Shown piece by piece: positions 12,954-63,290 of a stretch of 64,000 nt of DNA. Position numbers and translations under genes: made by a program. The notes under the pieces are model-generated. The model saw nothing but the letters and a program-made list of their open reading frames with translations, was not told where the DNA came from and made no database searches. Within the stretch, counting starts at the first letter, position 1. Each line of letters starts with the position of its first letter. Source of the stretch: Cubamyces lactineus (taxonomy: Eukaryota; Basidiomycota; Agaricomycetes; Polyporales; Polyporaceae). Location: positions 372,001 to 436,000 of the forward strand of contig JACDTU010000007.1 in assembly GCA_022376465.1 (NCBI GenBank), in the 5' to 3' direction.

Positions 12954-14328
12954 CTAGACGTCGTTAACGCCTTCCGAGTCCACGCTGTCCTCTCCGCGCT
13001 TCGAGATCCAGCGACCAGCGCCTCCCCATGTAGCAACAGAGTCGGGGGTTTCCTCTCCGCGCTTCGCAATCCATCGGCCAGCTCCTCCCCACGTAGCGAT
13101 AGACTCGGGGGCGTCCTCACCGCGCTTTTCAATCCAACGGCTTCCCCATATTTCGGCCGTACCGGGAGCATCGTCGCTGTGTTGCGAAGACCAAACGGCC
13201 CCCCGTCCACCGGCGGACTCGGGTTTGGCCTCATCGCGCTTCCGGCCCCAGATGACGCCCCAATTGAGTGCTGGAGAGACTACTGCATCATCGTTGCGCT
13301 TCCTCCCCCAGGGGTAGTGCCAAGCGCCTGGGCCTCCGGCCGGATGCAGGTTGTATTCAAGAGGGCTCTTTGTGTCGCTCTCGAGCTCGTCTGGGGTCGG
13401 ATCATCATGCTTGCTACCCTCAGCATGGTCAAGATCGGAGATCCTTTCGTTGAGAGTACTGGAGTCAGTCACAACGGCCGCATCGCGCTGAATGACGAAC
13501 GACGAATCAGCGTCACTAGCATCGCATAGACAGCTTCGATGATGAACCTCACTTTTGCCAGTTCACCAGTGAGATCCCGCTTGTACACATTCTCGGCAAA
13601 CGTGCGCGTAGTCCGGTCATACGGCTACAGGTCACCAGAGTTCGGCATACCGACGAAAACGCGTATCGTGAGAGAAGATGGTGGACGCACTGTGGCAAGA
13701 CCGAGGTACGGAGCACCGCCCTCTTCACCAGTGGCGTCGCGGAAGTTGGTGAGGTGTCCGCATTGAGAACAGTAGACATCATGGCCGAGCTTCTTCAGCG
13801 AGTTTCCTAGCTTGAGAGACTCGACGATGAACTCGGGGGAGTGAATTCCTCGAGCGAGTGCAGTGAAGACCCTGAACGTGCGTGAAAGGCGATTAGCTAC
13901 GTTTCAGAGCATATTCGTGCGCGAAGGAACATGGAACCCACCAATCGACAAACTCGGTTGCCTTTCCACAGACAGGGCAGTGGCGAGGCGGGCCTGTCAC
14001 CTTCGTGGCAATGAGTCCGACGTCGAGGTACTCGGGTCCAAGCAGCTCGACGATACGGCGTTCTTCATCCGCGTCTATCAGCATCTCGTATGTATGCGCG
14101 TCCGTCTTCCGGTACTTCAGTTCTTGTTGCTCTAGTGTCAGTCGGGCGTGGGCAAGATCGTCCGAGGTCACTGCAGCAGACGACTAGTTCGTCGATGCAC
14201 GGACAGGGTGTAGTGATTGATCAATAGGAGCATTCACGTGCGTATGAGATAATGCATACCGTCACCGTGATTGCAGCGAGAACGTGCAGGAGTAGCACAG
14301 AGAAGGCGTAGGTACGAATGGCGACCAT
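12954..14328 (-). CDS. KEP1: secreted Kex2-processed repeat peptide precursor
   Basis: Exons 14328-14266, 14183-13942, 13871-13691, 13624-13553 and 13487-12954 join in frame to 363 residues. It starts with a signal peptide (MVAIRTYAFSVLLLHVL...), then LKYRKTDAHTYEMLIDADEE. Two cysteine pairs follow (CPVCGK and DVYCSQCGH), a possible zinc ribbon. The last exon is a tail divided by Lys-Arg sites (YKR, AKR created at the last splice, GRKR, GRKR, EKR, AKR, SKR). The released cores are Trp-rich. The last two complete ones, GEDAPESIATWGGAGRWIA and GEETPDSVATWGGAGRWIS, are near-identical 21-residue repeats when KR is counted; earlier cores end HYPW and GVIW before GRKR. This is the layout of secreted proteins matured by the Golgi protease Kex2. 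Cleavage is inferred from motif only. An alternative donor at 14260 would add two residues to exon 1. The function of the peptides is unknown. Confidence 0.78.
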
Positions 14329-14470
14329 GGCGGCGTGCGCGGTGTCCTTGCCGACTCACGACGAGGTATCGGGGAGGAAATTTAGCAGGGATGCGCCAGT
14401 GTTCCTATAGACCGATGCCTCACTGCGAAGAGGGACTGGCTGCCTATCGAGAGCTGAAGTTCACGACCGT

Positions 14471-14478
14471 TTATATAA
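14471..14478 (-). promoter_or_regulatory. TATA box of KEP1 within a conserved promoter block
   Basis: TTATATAA lies about 145 bp upstream of the KEP1 ATG. The flanking 14471-14502 block (read on plus: TATATAACGGTAGTTGCGGG...TATTCGAG) recurs upstream of KEP2 at 17583-17614 with few changes. Similarity continues patchily to about 14870 and 17930, so the promoter was duplicated with the gene and retained. Confidence 0.6.
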
Positions 14479-15099
14479 CGGTAGTTGCGGGATATTCGAG
14501 GAACCTGGACAACTCCTCTCAGAACCGGCGTCTTACTCTTCGCTTTCACGGACGTGAAGCGCTTCTTTTTGACAGCTCTTGCGTAGCTCGAAGTACCAGC
14601 GACCTTAAGTACAGGCACCTTGTCACCTATGATAGTCTGTATATGCAAGTGAGTCCGAGTTAGTAATACAAACGTGGAGTCCGACGTCTGCTCGACTTGT
14701 CACACTTGCTGTCGTTCAGACAAACGTTTTGGTACATGTTGCGTACCGGTACAACAGTCAAAGTTGTCGGGCGCTCAATCTACATAGAGCGGCAGCTCTT
14801 TGATAGCTTGTCACCCACGAGGGGCACGATCGAGCACACTTGTACGTTGAGACGGAAGATTTAGCGCCAAGTGTAGCAAACGAAGTGCTGAAAGTGTCTA
14901 CTCACATCATATGAGCACTTGCATAGTTGCACGTTGGCTATATACCTCTCTTCCGGAGTGTAGGATGACGTTAGATAGAAGCCTGAGGTATGTCATGAGG
15001 TCGCGGTGTTGACCATAGTCGAAGGTAAGTGCGGAAATGCGACTCTAAGCGCTCACTTGCGCTACGTAGCTCTAGCGCCAGCTCGCTAAATACTTGGAA

Positions 15100-16371
15100 A
15101 TACTTGGAACGTCCTGCTCGCGACTGACCGGACGCTCGAGCTGGGCCTAGTCTCGCGCTCGGGGGTTCGTAAACGTTACGACATTATGGACGGCTCTGCC
15201 AAGGCATAGGACGACCACCGCAACTTATGGCCACGGTATCTCACAGTACAAACTATTAGGCCTGAGTCAGTGTAGACGCAGATGAACAGCAAGTACCGTT
15301 GAGCTTTGATTGGGAACTGAATGTAAGTCCTTGTGAAGAGCAGCGCCTTGTATTTGTTCGAAGACCTATCCAACTTCTGGTCTCCAACCTGACTTATGGT
15401 AAATTCACATGGGAAGCGCCTCACAAAGGCTGCATCGCGGCTTCTTCTGAGCGCGACGAGACAGGACGAGACCAATCCCCACTAGTGTTTCAGGCTAGTC
15501 ACCGAGTCACCGGCCGTCAGGCGCGACTTTATACCAACCTGAACGACAACGCTAAATCAGCGTCAGACTGTGGGAAGGCGAGGTACCTACATACCGGCAT
15601 GTCATGCCAATAGTGTCTAAGAGGAGAAACGAGTGTGTGCTGGGGCTAGAAGGCGTCCTCGTTGTAACGCTTTGCAGGCCAGTTCGGGGGGTCATAACAG
15701 AAGTTCGCGTCTAGCTGCCTTGGGTGGGCCTGATTGAAGGCCAAAGCCTGCTGGCAGTGGATTCGCCGCTGGCTTCGCTCATCGTAGTCGCGCAACGAGG
15801 GAGTCGGCCATGCGCAACCGAGCGCGACAATCTCGTATCGGCTCAGCCTGGGTGCTCTCCCCAATATGGAAGGTGTATTACCATGTTTGGAACCATGTTA
15901 GATTGAACCTCGCGTCTGCAGTGGGACGCACCAGTACCGTGACGCCGTATTCTATCTCAAAAAGGACGTCAATGCTATCCTGTAGAGGTTACACAACTTC
16001 TACTAGGTTTATACTGTGTTAATGCGGCTGAAACCGAAGAAATCTCGCCCACAATCCAACCAAGGCGACGGCTGGCATGCTGTGATTTCGCCTTTGACTA
16101 GAGCGGGATGACGAGCTACGGAAAGCCGTTCTGTTGTCGGCTGAGATTCATGTTTTATATGCAATTGGAATTGATGTACACAGCTTCCGCCAAGTCTTGA
16201 GCTCATACACAGACAATTCCGATAGACGACCTCAACTGCATTCCTCACAATTGTGTACAAGGTCCCTGGTGATTCGAACAAACGTAAGACAAAAAATCAA
16301 GCAATGGACTCTCCATCGGGGAAATCTAAGCTGCCAGTGCTCTTGATAGGAAGATGAAGCTAGTTAGGACG
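15100..16371. other. Spacer between the two KEP genes, nothing recognised
   Basis: Distal promoter of KEP1 followed by the 3' flank of KEP2. Several ORFs of 60-104 codons occur but none has a recognisable domain, a signal peptide or KEP-like motifs. Confidence 0.45.
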
Positions 16372-17485
16372 CTATACATAGGTATGAGTTGCCACTGGTT
16401 CAGCACTCGCGGATTGTCCGTCGATGGTATCTGTATCAGGATCGTTTTCTCCACCATCGACATGCCGTTTGATGAGGTAGATCCGGGTAGCCCACGCGGT
16501 TTCGTCTTGCCCAGGACTTGCCGAATAGTCGGTTTCTTCTTTGGCATCGCCTGTTAGGCCTCTCTGAGCGGTACAAAGAGCGTAATAAGCAACATCACAA
16601 GTGACACCTTTCATGTGAGAACTCATTCACCTTTGCGGGCATAGCCTCTCCGCCCCGCTGGCAGACATCGGTGTTCGCCTCAATAGGAGAAATCTCCACA
16701 TCCTCATCTGCCGAGGGCGAGTTTCCGTTTGCGTTGCTCTCGAGCCTGTCTTTCTTACAGATCCAGACGGGCCCCCACTTGGACGGGGTGGGTTCATCAC
16801 GCTTATCGCCCACATGGCCATGGTTCCGTCCATCGGGAACTTCTTCGTGACGGTCGACTGAGCTCATTATATTGCGCTGGTTTGTAAGCAGCGAGTCAGC
16901 ATCATGTTTAGCTGGGAGATCGTACGTCATATGAATCCATGAACTTACTCTGGAGTGCCGAAGTTCAGGTTCACGCTTGTATAAACTATTGGTAAAAATC
17001 CGTGTAGCCCGGTCATACGGCTACGGCGTCAAGTTCAGCCTGAGCGTGTTACTCGGAAAGTACTAGACGTACTGTAGCCAAATCTAGGTACGGGGCACTG
17101 CCCTCTTCTCCAGTAGCGTCTTGGAAGCCGATGAGGTGTCCGCATCCAGAACAGTAGACGTCGTGACCGCGTTTGTTCGGTGTATCCCCGCGCTTCAGCG
17201 ACTCGACGATCCGGCGTTCTTCGTCCGCATCTATCAACAACTCGTAGGTTTGTGCATCTACTTTTCGGTACTTCAGGTCCTGCTGCCCCAATGCGACTTG
17301 ATCGCGTGCGGGACCGGCGTCGGTCACTGCAGCTGATGACTATCGCATGTAGCACACGCATCAACGCAGTTTATAATCAGTAATTTGCGATAGCAATGAG
17401 CGCCCAAGGTTGCACTTACCGTGACTACCGCAGCGAGGACGTGCAGCAGTAGTACAGGGAAAGCATAGGTACCAATGGCGACCAT
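16372..17485 (-). CDS. KEP2: paralogous secreted peptide precursor, degenerate cores
   Basis: Exons 17485-17420, 17339-17073, 17020-16949, 16876-16631 and 16563-16372 join in frame to 280 residues. Signal peptide MVAIGTYAFPVLLLHVL, then LKYRKVDAQTYELLIDADEE and DVYCSGCGH, all close to KEP1. Exon 3 is 72 nt, as in KEP1, and encodes PYDRATRIF...LYKRE. Dibasic sites remain (LKR, NKR, YKR, GDKR, CKK, LIKR) but only Trp-containing relics of the cores survive, such as SKWGPVWI and ETAWATRIYLIKR. The segment carrying the first cysteine pair and one intron of KEP1 is missing: the sequence goes directly from ERRIVE to SLKRG. No stop or frameshift was found. It may be functional with altered products or may be decaying. 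Confidence 0.68.
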
Positions 17486-17581
17486 GATAGCATGTGCAGC
17501 GTGTCTGCCAGGGTGTAGGAGGAATTGACTCTCGGTATGTGGAGGGACTGGCTTGCTTTCGAGAGCGGGGGTCCACCATGA

Positions 17582-17590
17582 ATTATATAG
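17582..17590 (-). promoter_or_regulatory. TATA box of KEP2
   Basis: CTATATAAT on the minus strand, about 97 bp upstream of the KEP2 ATG, inside the promoter block shared with KEP1. Confidence 0.5.
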
Positions 17591-18355
17591 CCGTAGTCGT
17601 GGGATACTCGAGAACAGGTAACTCATCTCCGAGCGACAACCAGCGTCTTGCTCGTCGCTTTCACAGATTTGTGGCGCCTTTGTTGACAGCACCTTCGCAA
17701 CTCAAGGTCTCCTGACGGGTCTTCGACGGGGATGTCCTGTCTAGACAGATTATCATCCAGAGTATGTCCACGATGCAAGCGAGTTGTGTCGCAGGTTGGC
17801 AACGCCAATACCATCGTCGAGAGTCGCTCGTAACCTAAATGACAGCATTCAATAGTTTGTCGGCCTACGGGGGTACGATTTGGCGCACCTGTACGATGGG
17901 TCGGAAGATTTGGTTTCAGTTTCAATGATTGTAGAAGCCCAGAAGGTGTCTGCTCACGTTATGCGACTATTGGCATGGGTGCACGCTTGCTATATGCTGA
18001 TATCCTCGTGATGAAGATTCCGTTAGTACAGAAGTCCAAGGAATATCATGGGTTCGCCGTGTTGAACATGGTGGGAGAAGATGAGTACGCCGTCCCCTCT
18101 AGGCGCTCAGCCACGCCATGAGAGACGCCAGCTTCACTTCTGCCAACGCCTTCCATGACATCGAACGTTCGCTGTTCAGACGTTCAACGCTACTCGCATG
18201 TGCGAGAAAAGTCCACTTGCGTGCTCGTTGATGTATATCATGTCAAGCGCCTTATAAGACACATCCACTACCATTCGAAATACTTTCGAGTTCCTTCATA
18301 GCCCTTGAAATAGGACCAGATACAGAAACAGGATACCATAGCTAGCTTTCGCCTT

Positions 18356-18553
18356 GAGTCACATACTGATCCACGGCCACCGTCCACCCCGCTCCACCTG
18401 GATCTTTACATGTTTGCCGTGTGCCTGTCAGATTCTCCGATGCCGACCAAGTCCGTGCTGTCCTTACCCACGCGTTACTCTCCATTGGTCAGTAAACCAA
18501 GTAGGCGATTCGGGTACGTCCTCCGAATGGTCGTCGCGCTTGGAGAAGATGTT
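18356..18553 (-). pseudogene. KEP4: fragment of a KEP peptide-precursor tail
   Basis: Reading away from the SINE 3' end on the minus strand gives SKRDDHSEDVPESPTWF followed by TDQWRVTRG and a stop. The spacing KR-acidic-PES-x-TW matches the KEP1 repeat (KRGEDAPESIATWGG). A second weak match (RGGRWPWIS) lies further down in another frame. No upstream KEP sequence adjoins it; the SINE does. It is either the detached 3' end of KEP3 or a separate degenerate copy. Confidence 0.45.
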
Positions 18554-18990
18554 TTTAGTTTGTTTAATAGATCCCCATTAACTAATGGAGTAGGCCTCTC
18601 CCAGAGCCGTTAATTTTTTGCACCTTAATCACGGCCCGGATTAACTCACCTGTTTATCCCGTCGCGTCCCGGGCAGCCCAGAGGATTAACCACTCGGCGT
18701 TGGTTAGCGTGCGTTGAGCACCACCCCACGGCCCTCCGTCAGCCTCAACGACGACGATGAGCACAGGATAATCACAGGTTTATCCTTGAGATCATCCCCA
18801 GAGGTTCATCCTCGCAATCATCCTCGAGATCATCCTCAAGATTATCTCGAGATCATCCTGGAGGCCGAGTTCAACACCACGCAGCAGCGCTTGTGCGGGT
18901 AAAAAAGCGCCTTTAAAAACAACCAACTGAGGGTTCGAACCATTGTCATACACAACGGCAATAGAGAAATAACCATTACGCCACTAGTCC
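18554..18990 (-). mobile_element. tRNA-derived SINE, copy 1
   Basis: Read on the minus strand. The head has an A-box-like TGGCGTAATGG and a perfect B box GGTTCGAACCC (18931-18941), followed by T-runs. The body is nearly identical to 44660-44944 and includes GCTGACGGAGGGCCGTGGGG. The shared 3' end is CTATTAAACAAACTAAA. Between head and body are short reiterated GATGATCTCGAG/GGATAAAC motifs. It is non-coding and about 0.43 kb. No target duplication was found. Confidence 0.7.
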
Positions 18991-23812: not shown

Positions 23813-26800
23813 TCATCCTTGCATCCGACTTCGGGTTCGCTGACTTACAGGCAACATGTCCATCTCGTCCTCAGATTCCCCCTCGGAAGAATCTTCTCCT
23901 ACAATCTCATGGAGATCCTCTCCTTCCTCCTCATCACTTCCCAAAACATCCTCCTCTGGCTGTGTTTCGTCATTATCTACTGCATCAATCGGGTCACTGA
24001 CCAGGCTCTCCAGGTTTCTGTCTGATGGTTGATATGCGAGCAACCGGAATGCTGCCACACTCTCCCGCGAGACATCACCATTGAGCTCCTTGATCACATA
24101 GGAACCATTCTGGGTCCGTCGCACGATCTCATACGGTCCTAGGTATCTTGGCTTATGCTTCCTATTCATCTCCCTCTCAATAGCAGAGTTTCTGACGAGA
24201 ACAAGATCTCCACTCTCAAAGACTTCTTTGCGAATGCGATGTGCAAACCGCTTCTCAAAGTGCTCCTTTGAGGTGAGCCTAGACATGCGCAAGATTTCAG
24301 CCGCACGTGCTACATCTTCTGGTCTCCGCTCTAGTTGACGTATGCGTAGCGCCAGTAGATCAGCATGTGACATGTTCCGTCTGAAACCTTCCACCATGAA
24401 CGTAGACTCCCGGAGGTCCATAGGCAAGACTGGGTGCACTCCGTGAAGTAGGAAGTATGGGCTGAAACCAGTCGCCCTCCGAATGGAAATCCGATCTGCA
24501 AATACAGTGAGTGGTAACAGCTCCGGCCATCTCGAGATATTCCCTTCACAAGACTTGATCAAAGCCTCCCTGAGTATGAAGTGACCTCTCTCTACGACTC
24601 CGTTTGCTTTCGAGTTGTACGGAGATATACGGATGTGGTGTACCCGATATCTTCGCACTAGGGCCTCAAAAGCTCCCTTTGTCTCCGAACCGTTGTCCGT
24701 AACCACATGATGAACTGCGCCGTATCTACATATGATCTGCTCCCAGAAGAACTTTGCAACTTCCTTGGACGATGCTCCCTTTAGAGCCCTCGCCTCGGTT
24801 ACACCGGACAAGTCATCTCAACAGGCCACGATGCAGTTATAGCCACGCACAGTCGGCATGAACATGACGTCCATGTACACCTTATAGAACAGATCCACAG
24901 GTGTAGAGATGATGAGCGGGACTTCTACTTTCTTGACACTCCGGATCTGACATTCTCGACATCCGCCAACGTGACGACGAACATCTCCATGGTAGAATGG
25001 CCAGAAGAAACGTAACCGGACTGTCTCAAAAGTTGCTCTCACTCCCTTGTGACCAAACTGATCATGCGCCTCTTCTAGAATCCTTCTCCGTTCATTCTCC
25101 TCAAACACAACCTTCACAGGCATCCGCTGGGCGTATCGCCTGTACATCGCTCCATCTTTCACAAAGTAGTTGTGACACTTCCGGAGGAACTTAAAACGTG
25201 CACGGGGTGTGGAGAATTCTGGAACCTCTAGGTCTGATAGGAACCTGAAAATCATCCGCAATACCTGATCCTGGGTGGTGGTAGGAGTCAGATACACCTC
25301 GGCAGTCTCGTCGTATCCCGATAGCATCTCAAACTGATCCTTCGCTTCTGATGGAGTAGTGCCGATGTACAATGCAATGTTGTCCAGCCACTCATCGCCA
25401 TCATCATCCTCAACAACTTCTCCTTCCCCTAGAGGTCGTCTCGACAAGGCATCTGGTCCCTTATGCTGAGCTGCGGGAACATGAACCAACTTAAAGTCGA
25501 ACAGCAGGATTCCCTGAATCCATCGGTTGATTGTTGCATTCGGCTGTAAGTCTGGTTCGTTCAGCATACCTTTGATGTACTTGGCATCAACTTCGACGTG
25601 AAGTGTCTTGACTCCGACTAAGTATAGCCTCCATCGCCGTAGAGCTCGATAGAGTCCATACAACTCTAGCTTGGGTTGGCTGTAGTTGGACTCTGTCTCG
25701 TTCATTGGCAACGATCCATACCTTGCCGGCCTCCGTCTGCCTTCGTCGTCTATTTGGGAAAGGATGAACCCAACTGCGTACTTGCTGGAGTCCACTGACA
25801 GTATGACTGGGTTGGATGATGAGTAGTCTATTGGTCGTAGGGCTGGTGCGGAAGCAACCAGGTCCTTCAGCTCGTCAAAGGCACTCTGACGACGGTCATC
25901 CCAGATAAATTCAGCCTTCTGAAGCGTGAGCTCCCGTAAAGGCCTTACCTTCTCTGAGAAGTCCTTGATCCAGATCCTGACTGTCCCACACAGACCAATA
26001 AACCCTCGTACATCCTTGACTGTCCGTGGTACCGGCCAGTTGCGAATCTTGTCCACCTTATCGTCTTCCGGCATCCTACCTTCAGGCGTACACTTCTGTC
26101 CAACGATGATGACATCTGGCTTGCAGACCTGGGCTTTCAAACCTGAGAACGTGATACCTGCATGCCCGACTCTGTGAAGAATCCGATGCACATCATTGGC
26201 GTGTTCCCAAATAAACCTCCGAATGCCTCCATTCTCCTTCAATACTTCTGGATTGCCTTCGCTATCGGGGTAGCATGTAGCTGGTCCTTTGATGGGTAAA
26301 TCATCAATGAACACGTTTGCCACATGTGGAATCTCATCTTGGAGAATAAATGTCATACAAGCCTGGAATTCAGCAGGTGAGTTCGTGAATCCCATCGGCA
26401 TCGAAGTCAGGCGCAGCAATCCGAGTGGTGAATGGAATGCTGTGAGATCCCGGCTCACGATGTCTAGCTTACGTGCGTCAAAGGCCCAGAACAGGTCTAG
26501 CACTGTATAACACTGTCTTCCCGCAAATGGTTCCACGAAATCGTCAAGACTCGGAGGTAGTCCCGCATCACGGATAGTGATGGCGTTCAGTGGTTGCAGG
26601 TCATGAACCAAACGGAGCTTTCCGTTCTTCTTCAAAACACAGAACCACTTAGACCTGTACGACGACTGACATCGTTCGTACACTCCTGCCTCCAATTTTC
26701 CTCGAAGTAGCTCTATTACTTGCTCCCTAATCCCAGGCGGAATCGGAATATTCTTGTCCATCCACGGAACATGTGGAATGGTAGGGATTATGTAGGGAGA

Positions 26801-27310
26801 GAAGTAATCTTCTCGGAATGTCCCACGATCTCCTTCCTCGAAAGCTAGGACTTTCTCGTTTAGGGAGAAGATATGCTTGAACAGCTTCTCTTCTTCCGGC
26901 CAGAGAAATCCATCTGCATTGATCTTCAAGCCTTCCATACGTTCTCTCGTTAACTTCATCGTCGGCACAAAGTCGGGTGGATGCGGAGTGAGAGGCTGCA
27001 GCGACACTAGAGGGTCCTCCGGAAATTGCCGAACGACGCGGGCGTCTTCCGGAAACACTCCAGGCACTGGCTTCACTCTCCGATCTACTGGCTTGTACGC
27101 TCCGTACACGTGACAACGCTGGTCTTCCACTTGGCTCTCTTCGTCTTCCATCTCATCAGCCTCCTGTGCTTCTTCGGCGTATTCCGAGTCAGGGTCTTCC
27201 AACGCTGACTCATCCTCTACTAACAGAAACACAATTGGCCCTCTAGCGTCTTCGAGAAGCTTCGGCGGAGACCCTGGCTGGTCTCCGAACATTCTAGCAT
27301 GTCCTTCCAT
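23813..27310 (-). pseudogene. Ty3/Gypsy pol (element D), interrupted by one stop codon
   Basis: An 830-codon ORF (27310-24818) and a 332-codon ORF (24811-23813) lie in the same frame, separated by a TGA at 24815-24817. Order: N-terminal acidic region; reverse transcriptase (KWFCVLKKNGKLRLVHDLQP; active site NVFIDDLPIKGP with Phe for Tyr in the usual YxDD); RNase H (ILSVDSSKYAVGFIL); integrase HHCC zinc finger (QFGHKG...CRECQ); and integrase core (VYMDVMF, VVTDNGSETKGAFEAL, SPYNSKANGVVERGH). The stop sits inside the integrase core at VAC-stop-DDLSG; a CGA-to-TGA change is the simplest origin. No protease motif, gag or LTR was found nearby, so the copy is disabled and probably incomplete. Confidence 0.85.
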
Positions 27311-30921: not shown

Positions 30922-33900
30922 CTATAATTGCTCAGAATCAGAGTCCAATTCACTTTCATCTGAGCCAGACCCTTCTGCATCATCCCCCAGACTGCTTATA
31001 TCCTCTCCCTCCACCTCGCCGTATACCATGTGAATGTGAGAACGTCGAGGATGGTACTCTTTTGACAGAGAGACAAAGGGCGACAGGAAAGCGGGAACAG
31101 CCATGATGGTCTTGACGTAAGAGCACCAGCGCGTTCCACACCTTGTCACCAGGCTATCAAACAAGTCTGCCTGCCTGTTAGCATACACCGTTAATGCACG
31201 TTGCAGGGTAGTGCGTGTTACCACCCTCCGTGCCACCTGATCTCTCCACCACTTAGCCTGCCATCTGAAATACTCAATGACCCGTCGCATCTCCTCAAGT
31301 AACAACTTCTCTTCCTCCTCCCAACGGATCGCCCGAGCCCTGCATCGTGCCCATTCCGATCGCATTGATGTTGAGAATTCTTCCGCTGAAGTACGGTGGC
31401 CCGCGTTGGCGCCATGGACGCTATCAGGTGACTGGCCGACCAGCCAGATCCAGCTGATCTGATATCGCCCTTCACTGGCGGTGCGAGGGTGAAGGTCGTC
31501 GTCTTGCTTCCGTGGGCCACGGAGGTCTTCGTCCAACAGCGGCCGGTAGGTATGAGTCCAGTTGCCATCTGGATCAAGCGCCTCTAGAGCAGTACGAGCA
31601 GCGCGATACCGGTTGACAGCCCGCCGTTCCTTTGCTTTGAAACGAGCGTACAGATCTTGCATTCGAGTTGTCGCCCGTTGACCAGTGCCTGAAACATTGA
31701 CTTTTGAGTAGTCGATGATCGCGGCGAGGATGCGACGGACGCGACGAATGTCGTCAAGACTATCTGCGAGTTGCGCGGAACGAAGTCGATGTTCCTTCTT
31801 CTGGATGTCAGTGAGAGTGTCCAAGATACGCATGTGAGGTGGCAGAGCGGAGGGCAGCCAGAGCATCGTGTTCTCGGGTCTCGTGGGGGCAGAGGGAGTC
31901 AGCGACGGTGACAATGAAGAGGAGGAGTGTTCGGGAGGTGCGCGCAGAGATGCAACCATTGGCATATGGACATCTTGCATCAACTGCCACGCTTCGATAC
32001 GCTTCGTAAGCACATTTCGCTTTTCTTGTTGCTCAGCGAGTTCCGATATTGTCCTCATGCCGGAGGCTATGCGGGCTCGCAAAGCCCGCCTATGCATTGG
32101 TATCAGCACAAGGAGCTACGAGACTGGTTCACAGGAATCAGAAAACCTACTGTCGGTCTTCGAGCTCGAGGCCAAGCTGCAGAAAGACGCCAGGAGTGAC
32201 TTCATGTTGGGGAAACTTTCCCTCTCGTGCCTCAATAGCCTCCTCCTCGTTCAGAGCCTTCTTCGCCGTAGCGTACGAAACCGCTAGTGTATACATTGTT
32301 CAGTACGTTCGCAAGACCATCAGAGATTGAGAACGTACCAACTTGAGGCTCTTCGTAGGGATCGGGCTTATCGGGATCTTCCTCCCATGCCTTGATCATC
32401 GCTTCCCACTCTCGAATGACCTTGACATCGAACGTACTTGTGTACTGGTCGTATGTCTTGCGCTGTTGTACTTTCATAGCGTGTGCATCTTCTAGCGAGT
32501 GCAGTAGTGACTCTTCTGTGAACAAGCAAGAGTCTCTATCAGCCATTATTTGTAGAATCACCGAAAGCACACGTACCAAATGCAATGGTCTTCTGCCAGT
32601 TCCACGCGCCCCAGTGATCGTTGTAGACCTCATGGCGCATCCCAAGGCTCATCTCCCGTGTGCTCAAGGCCAGGGGGTTCATATGGGACCAATGTGACTC
32701 GATTCCTTCACCGTAAGTCCGCCCAACGCGCGGCAGGAGATTGAGGGAGAACCTGGAGTGGTTCGGACCATGCACTCGGTAGTGCTTCTTCGGTATCGTA
32801 AAACGGATCTCCTTAATCTTTGAGAGATCTAATCGAGTATCCGGAGGGAACTCAGCCATCCTCTTGAAGAAGTTGCGGTACCATTGGCATGCAATATCGT
32901 AGGAGATGAGCAGGAAGAGGTATAAAGTGCCGGCGAGGGTCGAAACAAGCAAGTAATCCATATTAGCATACCTGGTTAGCGCAGAAGGTTGAGAATCAGT
33001 CGCGTATTCACTTGCACATACGTTACCTCATACCTCTCGCCGAGCTGCAAGTCACCAGCTCCATTTCGGCGTACAAGTGCATGCCGCGCGCATAGCACCG
33101 CGCCGATCCCGGAGGCGACGTATCCTTCCTTGCGTAGGTGTGCCTTGGTGATGGCATTGTGCTCGGCAGAACATGTATTATCCTGTATGCGCGCAGTCAG
33201 CTCAGTGTCTGCCTGATCCAGGAACCAGTCATTCCATGCACCTCCTTCCGATCGATGGTGTTCTTGAGATGTGTTTGATAGCTTGACTCCTCGACATAGT
33301 AAGACCAGCCCGGGGCGAGCTCGAAGGGATCGAGGTTTCGGTCTTTGCAGCGTGCTCGGAAGTTGGCATCTATCATCAAGAAGAGGGTGTATAGCCAACT
33401 GTACTCGGGAGGCAAGATTAGAAGCGGATATCGAGGATATACGGAAGGTCACATACCGCATATGCAGCGGTGCAGTCTCCCATCCATGCGGCAGATTTTT
33501 CCCGGGGTGGGGGCATGCTGCGCATTCCACTACAAGCTCTCCCGGTTTTGTTCCAGCTGCTCCGGTCGGGTCGTGAGCGCGTCCTGCTCTCTTGAGCATG
33601 ATGAGGTGGCGCCAAAGGCGGATTACATGGGCCAGCTGTTTGTACCGTTCCTGACAAGGGCCTCTAATTAGTATATATCCGTCTAGTATGTAAGGCGCAC
33701 TTACGAAGTTCTTGTGATCACCGGAGTTGTCCGTCAGACGCTCAATAGTCCTCCAGAAGTCGAACAGATTGGTCTTGCCTTGGAAGTTCAATTCTTGGAA
33801 CGTGTCGAGGAGTTGGAATGTGAACGCGGTCTTTGGCCGAAGTGTTGTTGCCGGGAACCACCCTTGGCGTAAGAGTTGAGCCCATTCCCGCGTGAAATCG

Positions 33901-34831
33901 TTCGAGCCGTCCAAGCATTCGCAAAACCGAACCGTTACTGCCTGCACACCGGTGACGTCGCCGACGACAATCCGTCGTGTGTGGCTTGAAGGGCTCGGGC
34001 ATTCTGTCCCGTCATTATGCCCTAACTGGACGACGAGGCCTAGATCCCGCAGCGAGGAGCGACGGAAGGTCTCTCCAGTCCACATCTGTAGATATGATTA
34101 GTTATGATTAGTATTACGGAGCGCGCATAGACGGGTACTATGCTTACCTCAATACGGTGTAATGGATAGTCATGCACATGTTGCTTGACTAGGCACTGCT
34201 CGCAAGAAAGGCGGCGACGGAAGCAGTCTCGACATCGCCCCTGCGCCTGCCTCTCGCAACATATGGCGCATAGAACGCCACCCTCAGCCTCAATTGGCTC
34301 GTCACATCCTTCGCGACCAAGAACCTCGTCAAGAAAGTCTTCCCTGAAGGGAAGCCATGCGCGCACTTTGTTCTATCCATGAGTTAGTGCCTGCGATCGA
34401 ATGAACGCAAGACCTCAGCTTACTGCAGCACGAAGTTCCGGGCGACTACGACTTTCTTGTTTGCGCCTTTTTTCGCTTACTGGTGCTGTGACAAGCCCCT
34501 CGCCTTCGTCCACGGGCAGCCCAGTGATGATATCCTGAAGTTGGCTGTCCACCGCATCGGCTGCAGTACTGGCGTCTGCGTTGTCGTGTTCTATGGGTGC
34601 AAAATACTTTTCTGCAGGATTGGGGGATACCTCTCGACGACTTGACCTTTGACCTTGTCGTCCAGAAGAGGCGATGTAGAAGTGGATATTATCAACGACG
34701 CTGCGCGAGGCGGAGGGCTTCGATTCGTCCAAAGTCGGCTCTGCGCAAGTGCTGGGATGCATGATATCCTGGAAACGAGCCTTTTTCGTGTTTTGACTAC
34801 GACCTGGGCCTCTCTTCTGCCGTTTTCTCAT
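30922..34831 (-). CDS. KDZ-superfamily transposase with CxC2-type cysteine cluster
   Basis: Multi-exon. The N-terminus is basic and nuclear-localisation-like (MRKRQKRGPGRSQNTKKARF, 34831). The CxC2 cluster follows: CAICCERQAQGRCRDC, then CEQCLVKQHVHDYPLHRIE near 34250-34150. After it come AWLPF/GEC-type sequence, VVECAACPHPGKNLP near 33530, FLMIDANFRARCKDR near 33370, DNTCSAEHNAITKAH near 33180-33130, VLCARHALVRRNGAGDLQ near 33070, ISYDIACQWYRNFFKRM near 32890, and YGEGIESHWSHMNPLALSTR near 32700. The Asp of MIDANF, the Asp of SYDIA and the Glu of GIESHW are the likely catalytic triad. A long helical C-terminus ends with an acidic tail (DSDSEQL, 30922). Short GT-AG introns explain the frame changes. 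No disabling mutation was noticed, so this may be an active transposase. Confidence 0.83.
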
Positions 34832-40182: not shown

Positions 40183-40192
40183 GTGGCTGCAA

Positions 40193-44529: not shown

Positions 44530-44944
44530 AGAGGCCTGATTGAGTAACGGGATGGCGCCATGACTGGGTTGCAATGGCCTGTTGTTCGAGTCCCGTGCAG
44601 TCGACTTTTTACTTCTGCAGTTGGCAGCCGCGTCGTGTTGACTAAACAACGAAGTTTAACCTCCGGGATAAACCTCCGGGATTATCTCGAGATGATCACC
44701 GGGTTTATCCGAGGATAAACCTGTGATTATCCTGTGCTCATTGTCGTCGTTGAGGCTGACGGAGGGCCGTGGGGTGGTGCTCAACGCACGCTAACCAACG
44801 CCGAGTGGTTAATCCTCTGGGCTGCCCGGGACGCGACGGGATAAACAGGTGAGTTAATCCGGGCCGTGATTAAGGTGCAAAAAATTAACGGCTCTGGGAG
44901 AGGCCTACTCCATTAGTTAATGCGGGTCTATTAAACAAACTAAA
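44530..44944 (+). mobile_element. tRNA-derived SINE, copy 2
   Basis: The plus-strand head has an A-box-like GATGGCGCCATGACTGG and B box GTTCGAGTCCC (44584-44594), then TTTTT. The body from about 44730 on is almost identical to copy 1, ending CTATTAAACAAACTAA. The head sequence differs from copy 1. It is inverted relative to copy 1 and abuts KEP3. Confidence 0.7.
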
Positions 44945-45888
44945 TGAAGTCCCTGCGCGCTTGACCTGCCACGATGCATGCAGCACCCACCCCGCGGTGG
45001 AAGACGACACAGGTTCTTCGCCGGTCAACTCGGAATGCAAGCCGGCCTCGCCATTGTCGCGCTCCAAGAGCCAACGCGATGTCCTACCAGAGTCAGATGA
45101 GATAGGCTCGTCGCGCATCATGACCCAAATGGGGCCCCATGCGCTGGCGGGTGAGTTGGAGATCTCTGACACTGGCTCGGGCTCGTTGCCGTGCCTTCCC
45201 TCAGGCTGAGCCCAAGGCCAAGCCCACGAGTAGGAGGGATCTGCGACTGCCGGGTGCAAATTGTCCTCGAGAGGACTCCTGGCTTTGTGCTCTAGATCGT
45301 CTCCTTTTTGGATCCAGTCGTACGAGTACCAGACGTGATCACGCTTCCAATCCAACCGAGTGGGTGCTTCCTCGCCGTAGCCGGTTACGCAAGAGTGCGC
45401 TTTGCCACTTGCGGCGCGCTGGGTATGACAGTGTCAGTGTGACGAGCATGGGGTAAACGTTGGGTCAGAGAACTTACCTTCGCCTGCTGGTCGGTGTGAT
45501 CTCGTGTATCAACATCCTTGGCAAATGTGCGCGTAAAGCGGTCATACGGCTACAGATCCCCCGAGTTCAACGTACGGAAGCAAATGCTGAAAGTAGACGT
45601 ACAGTGGCAAGACTGAGGTACGGTGCTCCACCCTCTTCTCCTGTGGAGTCGCGACGAAAGTTGGTGAGGTGTCCGCATTGAGAGCAGTAGACATCGTGCC
45701 CGAGCTTCTTCGGCGAATGTCCTAGCTTCAGAGACTCGATGATGAATTCTGGTGAGTGAATCCCTCGAGAGAGCGCAGTAAAGACCCTGTGCGTGCAACC
45801 AAAACGATGAGCTACATTTCTTTGAACGACCCTGTAGGTGGAGAGAACCCACCAATCGACAAACTCCGTTGCCTTTCCGCAGACAGGG
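44885..45888 (-). pseudogene. KEP3: peptide-precursor copy truncated at both ends
   Basis: Exons 45786-45603, 45549-45478 and 45418 onward match KEP1 (VFTALSRGIHSPEFIIESLK; DVYCSQCGHLTNF; PYDRFTRTFAKDV), plus the end of exon 2 (CGKATEFVDW) up to 45889. There the 5' LTR of chromovirus A cuts off the signal peptide exons. The tail has KR/ER sites and Trp cores (LDWKRDHVWYSYDWIQK; SPLEDNLHPA, shared with KEP1 SPLEYNLHPA; SAWGPIWVM; GWVLHASWQVKR). It then runs into SINE 2, which supplies the last 21 codons (FSLFNRPALTN... to a stop at 44885). Confidence 0.75.
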
Positions 45889-46323
45889 TGTTACGACGCT
45901 CACTGTGTCACGGTCACGAAGTTTCCTTTTCCTTCCTCCTTGCGCTCCCACTATGCCACGTCATCTTTTCCCATACCACGTCATCCTTTCCCATGCCACG
46001 TCATCCTCGTTCCCACCGATTCCACGGTTGTTGTATTCCTAGCCTATCCTGTTTTGCCACGTCATCGCCACATCACCTGTATTCCCAGCCCTGACTCTAC
46101 GTAGTTATACTGGACTCTCACGGTACGTGGCGCCTACGTGGCGCTGACGTGTCTATGCCTCCTTTCCTGTATTTAAGACCGGAGGATCCGCTCGGGATCC
46201 TCAGCTCGACCTGGTTATCCATTGCCTATTCCTCTGAACCTCTACTCGACTCGAACTACTGGAGACCTCTGGTCCGATCCCTAGGACGTCGCTTGCTGTG
46301 ACCGATCTAGGCTCATCGTAACA
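45889..46323 (+). repeat. 5' LTR of element A
   Basis: 435 bp, TGTTACGACG to CGTAACA. Longer than the LTRs of B and C because of an extra CCATGCCACGTCATC-type unit at 45950-46010. It inserted in exon 2 of KEP3. Confidence 0.9.
46170..46212 (+). promoter_or_regulatory. LTR promoter: TATA box and predicted start of R
   Basis: TATTTAAG at 46170-46177. AGCTCGACCT at 46203-46212 lies about 33 nt downstream, where transcription would be expected to begin. That 10-mer is complementary to the primer-binding region at 46326-46335. Confidence 0.5.
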
Positions 46324-47299: not shown

Positions 47300-48070
47300 T
47301 TGTAGATGTTCGTGGGGGTATTGTACATCGTCCTGAATGACAATTGGCCCACGTAGGGATGATAATAACTGGATTGTCGATGTTCGTGGGGGTATTGTAC
47401 ATCGTCGTAGGGGCATTGTACATCGTCCTGAATGACAATTGGCCCACGTAGGGATGATAATAACTGGATTGTCGATGTTCGTGGGGGTATTGTACATCGT
47501 CGTAGGGGCATTGTACATCGTCCTGAATGACAATTGGCCCACGTAGGGATGATAATAACTGGATTGTCGATGTTCGTGGGGGTATTGTACATCGTCGTAG
47601 GGGCATTGTACATCGTCATGGGGGTATTGTACATCGTCCTGAATGACAATTGGCCCACGTAGGGATGATAATAACTGGATTGTCGATGTTCGTGGGGGTA
47701 TTGTACATCGTCGTGGGGGTATTGTACATCGTCGTGGGGGTATTGTACATCGTCGTAGGGGCATTGTACATCGTCGTGGGGGCATTGTACATCGTCCTGA
47801 ATGACAATTGGCCCACGTAGGGATGATAATAACTGGATTGTCGATGTTCGTGGGGGTATTGTACATCGTCGTGGGGGTATTGTACATCGTCGTAGGGGGA
47901 TTGTACATCATCGTGGGGGCATTATCAATGATCATGATTTACAAAATGCCCACGTAGGGATGATAATAACTGGATTGTCGATGTTCGTGGGGGTTATTGT
48001 ACATCGTCGTACAGACATTGTACATCATTGTGGGGGTATTGTACATTGTCGTACAGGCATATTCAACACC
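47300..48070. repeat. Minisatellite of the IR1 left arm
   Basis: Short unit GTACATCGTCGTGGGGGTATT (variants GGGGCATT), interrupted by a longer unit beginning GACAATTGGCCCACGTAGGG that recurs about six times. Its mirror is at about 50010-50720. Copy numbers differ slightly between the arms. Confidence 0.85.
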
Positions 48071-48380
48071 TTCCTGCCACTCCTTCTCTAGGGCCACATT
48101 GGGGCACCCTGTTGGGCTAAATCTATATATAACATATATGTATTTGCTTTAACACATATATCTGTTTATAGCAACACATTTGGGCAGGGAAAGTAGCCTA
48201 AAAATGCGACCCTAGGGTAGGGGCCATCAGGAGGGGACCAGTGCAGGGTGCGTAGCATGGCTCCCTCTCGGTCAATTTCTATGAACAATATATCATTGGA
48301 AAGGTGCTTGAAAGGGCTTTCCAACGCATATTATTGCATGAGGAATAATGCAGTATTGGTAGAGATATGGACCATCGCAT

Positions 48381-48398
48381 TTTCGCCCAAAATGGCCA
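48381..48398. other. Perfect 18-bp palindrome in the IR1 core
   Basis: CCAAAATGGCCATTTTGG. The homologous site in IR2 (near 61391) is AAAAATGGCCATTTT, so the inner 14 bp are kept. Confidence 0.6.
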
Positions 48399-50009
48399 TT
48401 TTGGTTCCTTGATTGCTTGGCAACCAGGCATTCCCTCATGCTCCCCTTGGTACCGTTGGATTCGCGTTTTTAAGGGCTATCTAATGGTAGTAAATACATG
48501 GTATTCTGACCACATGCATTGTCACCCTCCTCCTGCCCCTCCCCCACTTTACCACCTCATAGCTCTTGCAGTTCTTTGTCTTTCTCGGTAATCTCTTTTG
48601 ATCCTTGTAGTATACATAGAGAACTATGTATTTACCGCTTTTTACACCCTAATATGGCCTACTCCCAATGGAATTCATGTAGGTGCATTTTCGCACTTTT
48701 CAGATTCTCCCCTCCATATCTCTGCACCCAGAGCAGCCATTGCCTTCGTTCTTTTTTCATTTTGTGCCTAAACACTGCTACTACATGTCTGTGGAAGCTC
48801 ATTCTTATCGAATGCAGTGATCAGAATTGAGCTCCTTATCAGCTGGGGGAGGCAGATCCTGTTTTGGTTTACATCCAGCGAAATATTTTCTAATCAGATG
48901 GCACATTCATATTCTACTCGTCTATACCTACCTGGCACAACAAGAATCATGGGATTTGGTGAAGAACTGAGTGAGCTACAGGAAATGGACCTCCTAGACA
49001 CCCAAAGTTGCAGGATGTGCAGTTGCACTGCTCCGGAAATGCATGCAGTGCATTGCTGAACAGGCAGCATTTGGTGCCTCTGAGCCATATCTCTGCAACT
49101 ACTCATCCAAATCTCATGATTCTTGTTGTGCCAGGTAGGTATAGACGAGTAGAATATGAATGTGCCATCTGATTAGAAAATATTTCGCTGGATGTAAACC
49201 AAAACAGGATCTGCCTCCCCCAGCTGATAAGGAGCTCAATTCTGATCACTGCATTCGATAAGAATGAGCTTCCACAGACATGTAGTAGCAGTGTTTAGGC
49301 ACAAAATGAAAAAAGAACGAAGGCAATGGCTGCTCTGGGTGCAGAGATATGGAGGGGAGAATCTGAAAAGTGCGAAAATGCACCTACATGAATTCCATTG
49401 GGAGTAGGCCATATTAGGGTGTAAAAAGCGGTAAATACATAGTTCTCTATGTATACTACAAGGATCAAAAGAGATTACCGAGAAAGACAAAGAACTGCAA
49501 GAGCTATGAGGTGGTAAAGTGGGGGAGGGGCAGGAGGAGGGTGACAATGCATGTGGTCAGAATACCATGTATTTACTACCATTAGATAGCCCTTAAAAAC
49601 GCGAATCCAACGGTACCAAGGGGAGCATGAGGGAATGCCTGGTTGCCAAGCAATCAAGGAACCAAAATGGCCATTTTGGGCGAAAATGCGATGGTCCATA
49701 TCTCTACCAATACTGCATTATTCCTCATGCAATAATATGCGTTGGAAAGCCCTTTCAAGCACCTTTCCAATGATATATTGTTCATAGAAATTGACCGAGA
49801 GGGAGCCATGCTACGCACCCTGCACTGGTCCCCTCCTGATGGCCCCTACCCTAGGGTCGCATTTTTAGGCTACTTTCCCTGCCCAAATGTGTTGCTATAA
49901 ACAGATATATGTGTTAAAGCAAATACATATATGTTATATATAGATTTAGCCCAACAGGGTGCCCCAATGTGGCCCTAGAGAAGGAGTGGCAGGAAGGTGT
50001 TGAATATGC

Positions 50010-50720
50010 CTGTACGACAATGTACAATACCCCCACAATGATGTACAATGTCTGTACGACGATGTACAATAACCCCCACGAACATCGACAATCCAGTTAT
50101 TATCATCCCTACGTGGGCATTTTGTAAATCATGATCATTGATAATGCCCCCATGATGATGTACAATCCCCCTACGACGATGTACAATACCCCCACGACGA
50201 TGTACAATACCCCCACGAACATCGACAATCCAGTTATTATCATCCCTACGTGGGCCAATTGTCATTCAGGACGATGTACAATGCCCCCACGACGATGTAC
50301 AATGCCCCTACGACGATGTACAATACCCCCACGACGATGTACAATACCCCCACGACGATGTACAATACCCCCACGAACATCGACAATCCAGTTATTATCA
50401 TCCCTACGTGGGCCAATTGTCATTCAGGACGATGTACAATACCCCCATGACGATGTACAATGCCCCTACGACGATGTACAATACCCCCACGAACATCGAC
50501 AATCCAGTTATTATCATCCCTACGTGGGCCAATTGTCATTCAGGACGATGTACAATGCCCCTACGACGATGTACAATACCCCCACGAACATCGACAATCC
50601 AGTTATTATCATCCCTACGTGGGCCAATTGTCATTCAGGACGATGTACAATACCCCCACGAACATCTACAACGCAGCTATTATCATCCCTACGTGGGCCA
50701 ATTGTAATTCAGAACCATGT
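50010..50720. repeat. Minisatellite of the IR1 right arm
   Basis: Reverse complement of the left-arm repeat, with somewhat fewer long units. Confidence 0.85.
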
Positions 50721-54447: not shown

Positions 54448-57400
54448 TTACAGCAGCTTCTTCGCCCTTTTATACCGTTGGAGGATTTCTTTGGCGTTCG
54501 GAATTAGAGCGGACTCGGGTTCCCATGTGTTCTCGGCGCTGGAGTAGCCTTTCCACTTGATTTGGTAGCGGATTCCGCCTCGTGTGGTCTTGTGTCCAAC
54601 GATCGCTTCGACCTCATATTCTTCTTCTCTGTCGATAAGGTCAGGTGGTGGCCTCGTGTAGTTCGGTCCGTGGGTGTCGTTTTCCTTGTATGGGGTGAGG
54701 AAGCATGCGTGGAACACGGGGTGTACCTTCCAGTGTTTCGGCAGCTCCAGCCGATAGGTCACGGGTCCAAGTACTTCGGTGATGACAAAGGGGCCTTCCC
54801 GTTTGGGTGCGAGTTTCCGGGATGCGTAAGCGAGCTTGAGGTTCTTCCCTTCAAGCCAGACCTTCTGTCCTTTCTTGAATTGGACGAACTTTCCCTTGAA
54901 CCTGTCGCGTATGACGTGTCGGGCTAGCTCGTGGGCTGCTAGGGCTTCGTCTCGGGCCTTCTGGAGGTTCACTAGCCGTTCTTGTACTGTCGGGGTGTTG
55001 GTCTTGGGGTATGCGATAGGAATCAGTGTCGGTTCGTACCCCATCATGAGGTAGAATGGTGATGCGTTCCGTGCTGAGTGGGTCCGTTGATTGTGTGCGA
55101 CTTCTGCGTCGACAAGGTGTTCTGCCCATTTGTCTGGTCGGCCTTCGCAGAATATCCTGAGGTAGACTTCCAGTTCTTGATTCACTCGTTCAGTTTGTCC
55201 GTCGGTCTGCGGGTGATATGCGGTAGACGGGGAAAGGGTGATGCCTAAGAGTCTTCCTAGTTCACGAGTGACGTTGGATACGAATTGTGGCCCTCGGTCG
55301 GATATGATCTTGCTGGGTAGTCCAAAGCGTCGGTAGACATGCCGGTGGTAAAGCGCCGCTGTGCCGATTGCGTCGATCGTCTTCTTGCATGGTGCGAAAA
55401 TCACCCCCTTCGTAAGGCCATGGTCGACCACGACCAGAATACTATCGTAGCCGTGGGATTCGGGGAGATCGGTGATGAGATCCATCGTGACGTTCTGGAA
55501 TGGCCGAGTAACATCGTCAGCGGGGATTGGTTGTGGGGGCGGGGTGGTCGGGTGTGTGTTTGGCTTGTTCTGCTGGCATGTGGCACAGCCTTCGACGTAT
55601 CGGGATACCATGGCATACATGCCGGGCCACCAGTATGACCGTCGTATCAGTTCTAGAGTCTTGAATTTCCCAGGGTGTCCGGCTGCCGGGGAGTCGTGGT
55701 GTTGACTGATCAGGTCTCGTCGCAGGGCTTCGTCGGCCGGTACGTAGCATCGGTTCTTGTAGAAGATTAAGCCGTCTCGTTCTTGCCAATCGGTGAGTGC
55801 ACTTCTGATCGGGGGTGGTCCGTCGTGTTGGATGGCAGCAAGTGCGTCGCAAAAGAGTCTGTCTTGCGTGGCCAAGTGTCGGAACCTCGGTGCCAGTCGG
55901 GTGTCCACTAGTCGTACGAAGAGGTTGTCAGGTAGCATGGTTCGTTCAGTATTGTCATCTTCTGATCCTTGTCGGTGATCGGGTCTTCGGGATAGCGCAT
56001 CCGATTGTACCATTGCCGTGCCGGGGGTGTGTACGAGTTGGATGTCGAACTGGGAGAGAAAGAGGGCCCATCGTGCTTGTCGTCTGTTCAGTTGTTGCGG
56101 GTTGCGCCAGTAGGTGAGGTTCTTGTGGTCGGATAGGATCGTAACCGGGTGCCCTGATCCTTCGAGGTAGTGTCGCCAGGCCTTCAGGGCTCGAATGATG
56201 CCAAGTAGTTCTCGGTCATAGATTTCGTAGTTCCGTTCCGCTTCGGTGAATCCTTCGGATAGATACGCGCACGGGTGCAGGTCGCCGTTGGCGTCTCGTT
56301 GCCGGAGTACTGCCCCTGTGGCCCATTGCGAGGCGTCGGATTCGACGACAAAGGGTTTGCTAATGTCGGGCATTTGCAGCACGGGGGCCGTCGCGAATCG
56401 TTGCTTCAGCATGTCGAAGGCCTTCTGGCATTCCGTTGTCCATTCCCATTTGGCGTCTTTCTTGGTGAGCGCGTTGAGCGGTCGCGCGATCTCCGAGAAG
56501 TGGTCGATGAATCGTCGGTAAAAGTTGCCGAATCCAAGGAATGATCGAACGTCCTTGACGGTTGTCGGTTCTGGCCAGTCGAGTATTCCCTTTATCTTGA
56601 TAGGGTCCATGGAGATCCGATTCTCGCTGATGATCATTCCAAGATACTCCACTTCTGGTGCGTCGAATGTGCACTTCTCTAGCTTGAGGTAGAGGTCGTG
56701 TTCCTTGAGTCGTTCCAGGACACGTAAGGTCCTTCTTTGGTGTTCGTCCAGGTCTGCCGAAAAGATCAGTATGTCGTCCATGTAAATCACTACCCATCCT
56801 TCGTCGATCATGTCTGCGAAGATCGCGTTCATCATAGCTTGAAAAGCCGAGGGGGAGTTCCGCAGTCCAAAGAACATGACCATTGGTTCGTATAGCCCTT
56901 TGCTGGTTCGGAAGGCGGCCTTCCATTGATCACCGTCCTTGATACGGACGTTGTTGTATCCCGATCGGAGGTCCAGTTTGGAGAAAACCTTCGCTCCGCG
57001 CAGCTTGTCGACCAATTCTGATATGAGCGGTAGTGGGTACTTGTTGGGGACGGTTCCTTCGTTGAGGTATCGATAATCTTGGCAGGGTCGTAGTGTTCCA
57101 TCTTTCTTGCCGACGAAGAAGAATGGGGATGCCATCGGCGAGTTCGAGGGTCGGATGTAGCCTTTTCGTAGGTTCTCCCGGATGAATTCTTCCTCGGCTT
57201 CGAGTTCCTTGGGCGTGAGTTGATATCGCTTGAAGTCCTTCGGGGTAAAGCCTTCCTTGAGTTCAATGGCCAGGTCCCAGGGTCGTGATGGTGGGAATCG
57301 TTCGGACGCCTTCTTTTCAAAGATGGCGGCATATCCTCGGTACGGTTCGGGGAGCATCTCTTCGAAAGTCTTCTTCTCTTCCTGTGCTTGGTGCTGTTGT

Positions 57401-60784: not shown

Positions 60785-61055
60785 TCCCGGTCTGGGCGCT
60801 TTTTATGGGCGCTTTTTTCGGGCTTTTTGGGCGCTTTTCTGGGCGCTTTTCCCACACCTTTCTGGGCACTTTTCTGATGCTTTTCTGGGCGCTTTTCTGG
60901 CGCTTTTCTGGGCGCTTTTCGGGCGCTTTTCTGGGCGCTTTTTTGACACTCTTTGGGCGCTTTTTTGACACTCTTTGGGCGCTTTTTGTCAATGATCTGG
61001 GCGCTTTTTGGCTACTATCTGGGCGCTTTTTGGGCGCTTTTTTGCGTCCAAACAG
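60785..61055. repeat. 12-bp minisatellite of the IR2 left arm
   Basis: About 20 tandem GGGCGCTTTTCT/GGGCGCTTTTTT units. Mirrored at 63025-63290 in the right arm. Confidence 0.88.
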
Positions 61056-63024: not shown

Positions 63025-63290
63025 GGACGCAAAAAAGCGCCCAAAAAGCGCCCAGATAGTAGCCAAAAAGCGCCCAGATCATTGACAAAAAGCGCCCAAA
63101 GAGTGTCAAAAAAGCGCCCAAAGAGTGTCAAAAAAGCGCCCAGAAAAGCGCCCGAAAAGCGCCCAGAAAAGCGCCAGAAAAGCGCCCAGAAAAGCATCAG
63201 AAAAGTGCCCAGAAAGGTGTGGGAAAAGCGCCCAGAAAAGCGCCCAAAAAGCCCGAAAAAAGCGCCCATAAAAAGCGCCCAGACCGGGAG
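63025..63290. repeat. 12-bp minisatellite of the IR2 right arm
   Basis: AGAAAAGCGCCC/AAAAAGCGCCC units, the reverse complement of 60785-61055. Confidence 0.88.

Follow-up and report, generated by a model that had tools for sequence, protein, structure and literature searches.

Predicted secreted tryptophan-peptide precursors of Cubamyces lactineus and their probable origin from a non-secreted PF26731 protein

KEX2-processed repeat proteins (KEPs) are counted at 1193 in PMC6339444 and at 7878 in PMC7329392, and both papers name, among other criteria, a signal peptide and at least three repeats between dibasic sites. An XSDW repeat motif is known from Basidiomycota KEPs (PMC6339444). In four agaricomycetes other than C. 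lactineus, Vogt et al. detected KEP peptides in linear form; their knock-outs of six kep genes gave no phenotype, and they favour a role of KEPs in biotic interactions (PMC9769878). Two further systems share predicted features with the locus described here: dikaritins of the ustiloxin type, which come from a Kex2-cut repeat precursor, and α-factor-type pheromone precursors, which combine a signal peptide, dibasic sites and Trp-containing peptides.

The DNA analysed comes from Cubamyces lactineus, a wood-decay fungus of the Polyporaceae with a genome of 36.3 Mb in 43 contigs. The window, a stretch of 64,000 nucleotides, is C41:372001–436000, on a contig of 1,844,538 bases (C41). An earlier note on the window proposed a four-member family of secreted, Kex2-type precursors (KEP1–KEP4). 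By layout, a secreted family of the known KEX2-processed repeat class is well supported at the level of sequence, as is the conservation of its cores, but two of the four window members are fragments. KEP1 is intact, with five exons and four GT..AG introns encoding a predicted secreted precursor of 365 amino acids, and its layout recurs in paralogues. Its parts are as follows.

KEP1, 12954–14328, minus strand: whole gene
Exon 1, 14260..14328, minus strand: hydrophobic N-terminus, a signal peptide by heuristic only
Exon 2, 13942..14183, minus strand: leader domain with CPVCG; homologues found
Exon 3, 13691..13871, minus strand: leader domain with CSQCG; homologues found
Exon 4, 13553..13624, minus strand: 72 nt, with the first KR of the tail
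Exon 5, 12954..13487, minus strand: tail containing five cores of the W-x-x-[KR][KR] type
Cores, 13296–13322, 13236–13262, 13122–13148, 13059–13094 and 12996–13031, minus strand

The leader segment LKYRKTDAHTYEMLIDADEE and the CPVCG and CSQCG pairs, all claimed in the earlier note, are present in the KEP1 model. The tail in exon 5 likewise bears out the description of Trp-rich cores cut at Lys-Arg: it reads WHYPWGRKR, WGVIWGRKR, WGSRWIEKR and two copies of ATWGGAGRWI[AS]KR. A hydrophobicity score with a threshold of 2.0 served as the sole heuristic for signal peptides; by it the N-terminus of KEP1 is hydrophobic, with KEP1, KEPa, KEPb and KEPe scoring 2.62–2.73 and KEPd 1.94. The database model of KEP1, P0001, ends at 215 amino acids and lacks the tail because it reads into intron 4.

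In the whole genome, KEP1 DNA gave 9 matches, the leader protein 14 and the tail 4, every one of them on C41. KEP1, KEP2 and KEP3 lie on the minus strand within the window, and further loci lie outside it.

KEPa, C41 79.2–80.5 kb, plus strand: paralogue
KEPb, C41 81.9–83.3 kb, plus strand: paralogue
KEPc, C41 about 440 kb, minus strand: part of a gene broken by a long terminal repeat (LTR)
KEPd, C41 441.3–442.6 kb, minus strand: paralogue
KEPe, C41:443602–445253, minus strand: paralogue

The six modelled loci share a hydrophobic exon 1 of 22–23 codons and the leader exons. The 72-nt exon, described earlier as constant in length, keeps that length in four loci (KEP1, KEP2, KEPa and KEPd); in KEPe it measures 66 nt, and in KEPb it is continuous with the tail. 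The second KR spans the exon 4/5 junction in KEP1 and KEPa. Intron 2 of KEP1 (13872–13941) shares 90% identity with its KEPa counterpart, far above the 59–64% of the other introns, and gene conversion is therefore possible.

The remaining window members are broken to different degrees.

KEP2, 16375..17485, minus strand: five exons (17420–17485, 17073–17339, 16949–17020, 16876 down to 16631, 16375–16563); decaying sister of KEP1
KEP4, 18467..18544, minus strand: 78-nt tail fragment SKRDDHSEDVPESPTWFTDQWRVTRG, resembling the end of KEPd; not a full precursor
KEP3, 44945..45888, minus strand: middle and tail portion of a disrupted gene, with several dibasic sites gone
LTR copy, 45889..46323, no strand assigned: cuts the KEPc/KEP3 gene; sister copy at C41:439513–439947, duplication CCCTG

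KEP2 is a decaying sister of KEP1. An internal deletion has removed 52 leader residues, including the first Cys pair (CPVCG), and thereby fused the leader exons; an early stop precedes the position of the last core of P0003. Its last exon is taken as in the database protein P0013. The earlier inclusion of KEP3 and KEP4 among the working precursors is not supported, KEP3 belonging to an interrupted gene with dibasic sites gone and KEP4 being a tail fragment. Homology between KEPc and KEPa ends at a 435-nt repeat with TG..CA ends, whose flanks have CCCTG (5 bp) in common, and homology between KEP3 and KEPa resumes past a 99.5% identical copy; KEPc and KEP3 are a single gene interrupted by an LTR element. 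At present 22 kb separate the two LTRs, which suggests that later insertions have enlarged the element.

KEP4 adjoins, and KEP3 ends at, 233-nt inverted repeats (18554–18786 and 44712–44944, respectively; 99% identity). These enclose 26.4 kb (18554–44944) containing a frame that resembles KDZ transposases and has CxC2/CxC1 domains (32979–34085) and a Ty3-type reverse transcriptase frame (24821–27310); no target-site duplication was seen at the terminal repeats. Long inverted repeats are dense at 40186–63464, among them 47395–48959 against 49107–50671 (1565 nt, 100% complementary, 147 nt apart). A Ty3-type polyprotein frame with a chromodomain lies at 54451–58296, and 11–12-nt tandem repeats of the AAAAGCGCCC type occur in opposite orientations at 63087–63281 and 60813–60973.

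Dense transposons, the deletion and early stop in KEP2, the KEP3 and KEP4 fragments and the tailless database model of KEP1 would all suit a decaying array in which KEP1 is perhaps as silent as its neighbours. This is very unlikely, given that KEP1 is open across five exons and that its leader has a dN/dS of 0.124 against KEPa. The two ATWGGAGRWI copies, moreover, differ by five extra synonymous codons and only one residue.

The paralogous tails differ in their units. KEPb has six copies of TYGWDTISC[LI][TA]KR, and KEPe has nine of PP[AV]WRPLWT[RK][KR]R interspersed with seven of [YF]PGQS[DV]WRR. Repeat copies within KEPb and KEPe differ mostly synonymously (extra codons against residues: 13/2, 16/3 and 10/2). 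At least three repeats between dibasic sites thus occur in KEPb and KEPe, both outside the window; taken strictly, KEP1, with two near-identical copies and five related cores, has fewer, as does KEP2. Core sequences vary widely among paralogues (TYGWDTISCLT, WRPLWT, WGGAGRWI), and those of KEPb lack the W..W form. From KEPe, cleavage would also yield a second kind of peptide with QSDW at its end, similar to the basidiomycete XSDW motif given in PMC6339444.

Across 21 tails, Trp occupies position P5 in 62 of 133 dibasic runs, repeats within one protein not being independent; 1000 shuffles with the dibasic sites fixed gave a mean of 9.7 for W-x-x-dibasic (sd 3.0, maximum 20). The Trp pair itself, W-x(2-8)-W, showed no clear enrichment, at 75 occurrences against 60.0 in shuffles (sd 5.7, maximum 83). 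Leader dN/dS was 0.041–0.205 in 13 of 15 paralogue pairs and tail dN/dS 0.213–0.568 in 11 of 15, with dS often saturated; the remaining two and four pairs, respectively, were not computable.

Four cross-species pairs, chosen by likeness and not by synteny, separate the cores from their surroundings. For KEPb and P0008, identity is 105/116 in the leader, 60/60 in cores and 67/105 in spacers; for KEPe and P0006, the values are 110/117, 143/164 and 52/80. The pair KEPd/P0002 gives 105/117, 20/25 and 54/98, and KEP2/P0003 gives 95/117, 21/24 and 66/131. Trp cores are thus 80–100% identical and spacers 50–65%. The pattern that the earlier note had named as counting against its reading, drifting KR sites and Trp cores in an otherwise conserved protein, is the reverse of that found in all four pairs.

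In the proposed processing route, exon 1 would supply the signal peptide of a secreted precursor, which is followed by the conserved leader. Kexin would cleave the tail after KR, RR or KK and free several short, Trp-containing linear peptides, typically of the form W-x(3-4)-W-x-x, and a Kex1-type carboxypeptidase would trim them. A kexin-type P domain is encoded on contig C12. Nine genome matches to UstYa (best candidates scored) lie on contigs C1, C23 and C40 and none on C41; unlike in dikaritins, UstYa genes are not beside the precursors, so linear peptides are likelier, and the earlier suggestion of a cyclised, ustiloxin-type product finds no support. Unlike α-factor-type precursors, the KEPs lack regular X-A or X-P dipeptides behind their dibasic sites: in KEP fragments, this STE13 signature was absent after KEPb sites and appeared as one EA in KEPe. 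Compared with described KEPs, the locus shares a predicted signal peptide and the short repeated cores between dibasic sites, but differs in its folded, conserved leader, common to non-secreted proteins, and in KEP1 having two near-identical cores only.

The earlier note did not recognise the leader, which by database annotation is PF26731, precomputed for 12 of 13 database matches, including P0001. No account of the leader or its non-secreted relatives was found in the literature searched, including the available text of PMC6339444, PMC7329392 and PMC9769878. Within that literature, the KEP class itself is known and the leader's link to non-secreted agaricomycete relatives is apparently the undescribed part. 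In the AlphaFold model of P0061, block means are 77–93 over residues 21–150 and 47–59 beyond, and no PDB relative was found. Zinc-ribbon Pfam families match eight proteins and P0061, all under the cut-offs; zf_Tbcl_2 weakly matches 18 of 30 relatives (best E 0.00052), and PF09297 is precomputed for P0017. The leader is probably zinc-ribbon-like, and its two Cys pairs together with these weak matches suggest zinc binding.

Leader searches found homologues widely in agaricomycetes, apparently non-secreted forms among them. A profile of nine leaders retrieved 79 proteins at E ≤ 1, and a profile from 30 relatives retrieved 58 at E ≤ 0.01. PF26731 proteins of Rhizoctonia, Collybiopsis, Boletus, Gloeophyllum and others share CxxCGK..EFxDW and HDVYCSxCG with the KEPs, and P0066 and P0067 have read-through stretches at the position of KEP intron 2. 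Most of the 30 relatives are about 200 amino acids long and start shortly upstream of a conserved FxP..PPTK; unlike the KEPs, they have no hydrophobic N-terminus, 0–2 KR in the tail and mostly one C-terminal WGxWW. A Gloeophyllum homologue gave 12 matches in the C. lactineus genome (E ≤ 1), all at known C41 loci, so no non-secreted member was found there.

Two relatives that lack a signal peptide, Steccherinum P0090 (no KR in the tail) and Panus P0036 (two KR near the end), each contain several W units, and such units may therefore have a use without Kex2 cleavage. These proteins, and the leader being the best conserved part, would fit a product that is the leader itself, a secreted zinc-ribbon-like or disulphide protein whose Trp tail is an uncut binding region or a discarded propeptide. 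Cores and dibasic sites kept while spacers drift, and a Trp fixed in position relative to the dibasic site, make this unlikely.

An unrooted tree of 71 domains has a branch (support 100/100, length 0.65) that splits 37 proteins without a signal peptide from 34 others. The named members of the 34 are from Polyporaceae genera. Of the 37, 24 have WGxWW; none of the 34 does. The signal-peptide label changes eight times over all 71; on the Polyporaceae side, eight proteins score as non-secreted, namely seven truncated or partial sequences and KEPd. Removing the seven leaves two changes, and one if KEPd is also counted as secreted, in a version with 27 secreted proteins and 37 not. The non-secreted form, which is spread over several orders, is for that reason treated as the older. 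Outside the Polyporaceae-type clade, PF26731 proteins thus appear to lack a signal peptide and mostly to end in one WGxWW.

From these comparisons, the best explanation overall is probably that the secreted Trp-peptide precursors arose in Polyporaceae from a non-secreted PF26731 protein. The ancestor would have been an agaricomycete protein with the domain and a C-terminal WGxWW; in Polyporaceae, a signal-peptide exon would have been gained and the Trp motif multiplied, with dibasic sites framing the copies. We infer both the descent of the cores from WGxWW and the direction of change. A less probable alternative is that the precursors are real but acquired their cores independently, so that the resemblance to WGxWW reflects chance or convergence: the motif is short, cores differ widely between paralogues, and Trp-pair spacing alone is not clearly above shuffles. 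Cores and WGxWW are nevertheless both C-terminal behind the same domain, and multi-unit tails exist in non-secreted relatives, which favours descent from WGxWW.

A more specific and rather improbable version of descent from WGxWW has a precursor resembling those of peptide hormones caught at birth. Its non-secreted, zinc-ribbon-like ancestor would have used the Trp tail for docking. The tail would have multiplied first, as in Steccherinum and Panus, and the signal-peptide exon and dibasic sites would have followed in the Polyporaceae ancestor, with the leader still recognising the Trp motif and carrying the peptides. Neurophysin, which carries vasopressin, offers a comparison for such a leader.

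The likeliest use of the peptides would be extracellular interaction with other organisms or with the fungus's own kind; tails that diverge and genes that are lost, together with a leader that is conserved, would fit such an outside role. Origins of secreted peptide precursors are hard to trace because repeat tails change fast. Here, the conserved leader ties the precursors to non-secreted relatives, so that the order in which tail repeats, a signal peptide and cleavage sites were acquired becomes testable across living fungi, and exact predicted peptides are available for mass spectrometry in Trametes-type fungi. If true, the proposed origin would illustrate the birth of a peptide precursor from an ordinary non-secreted protein.
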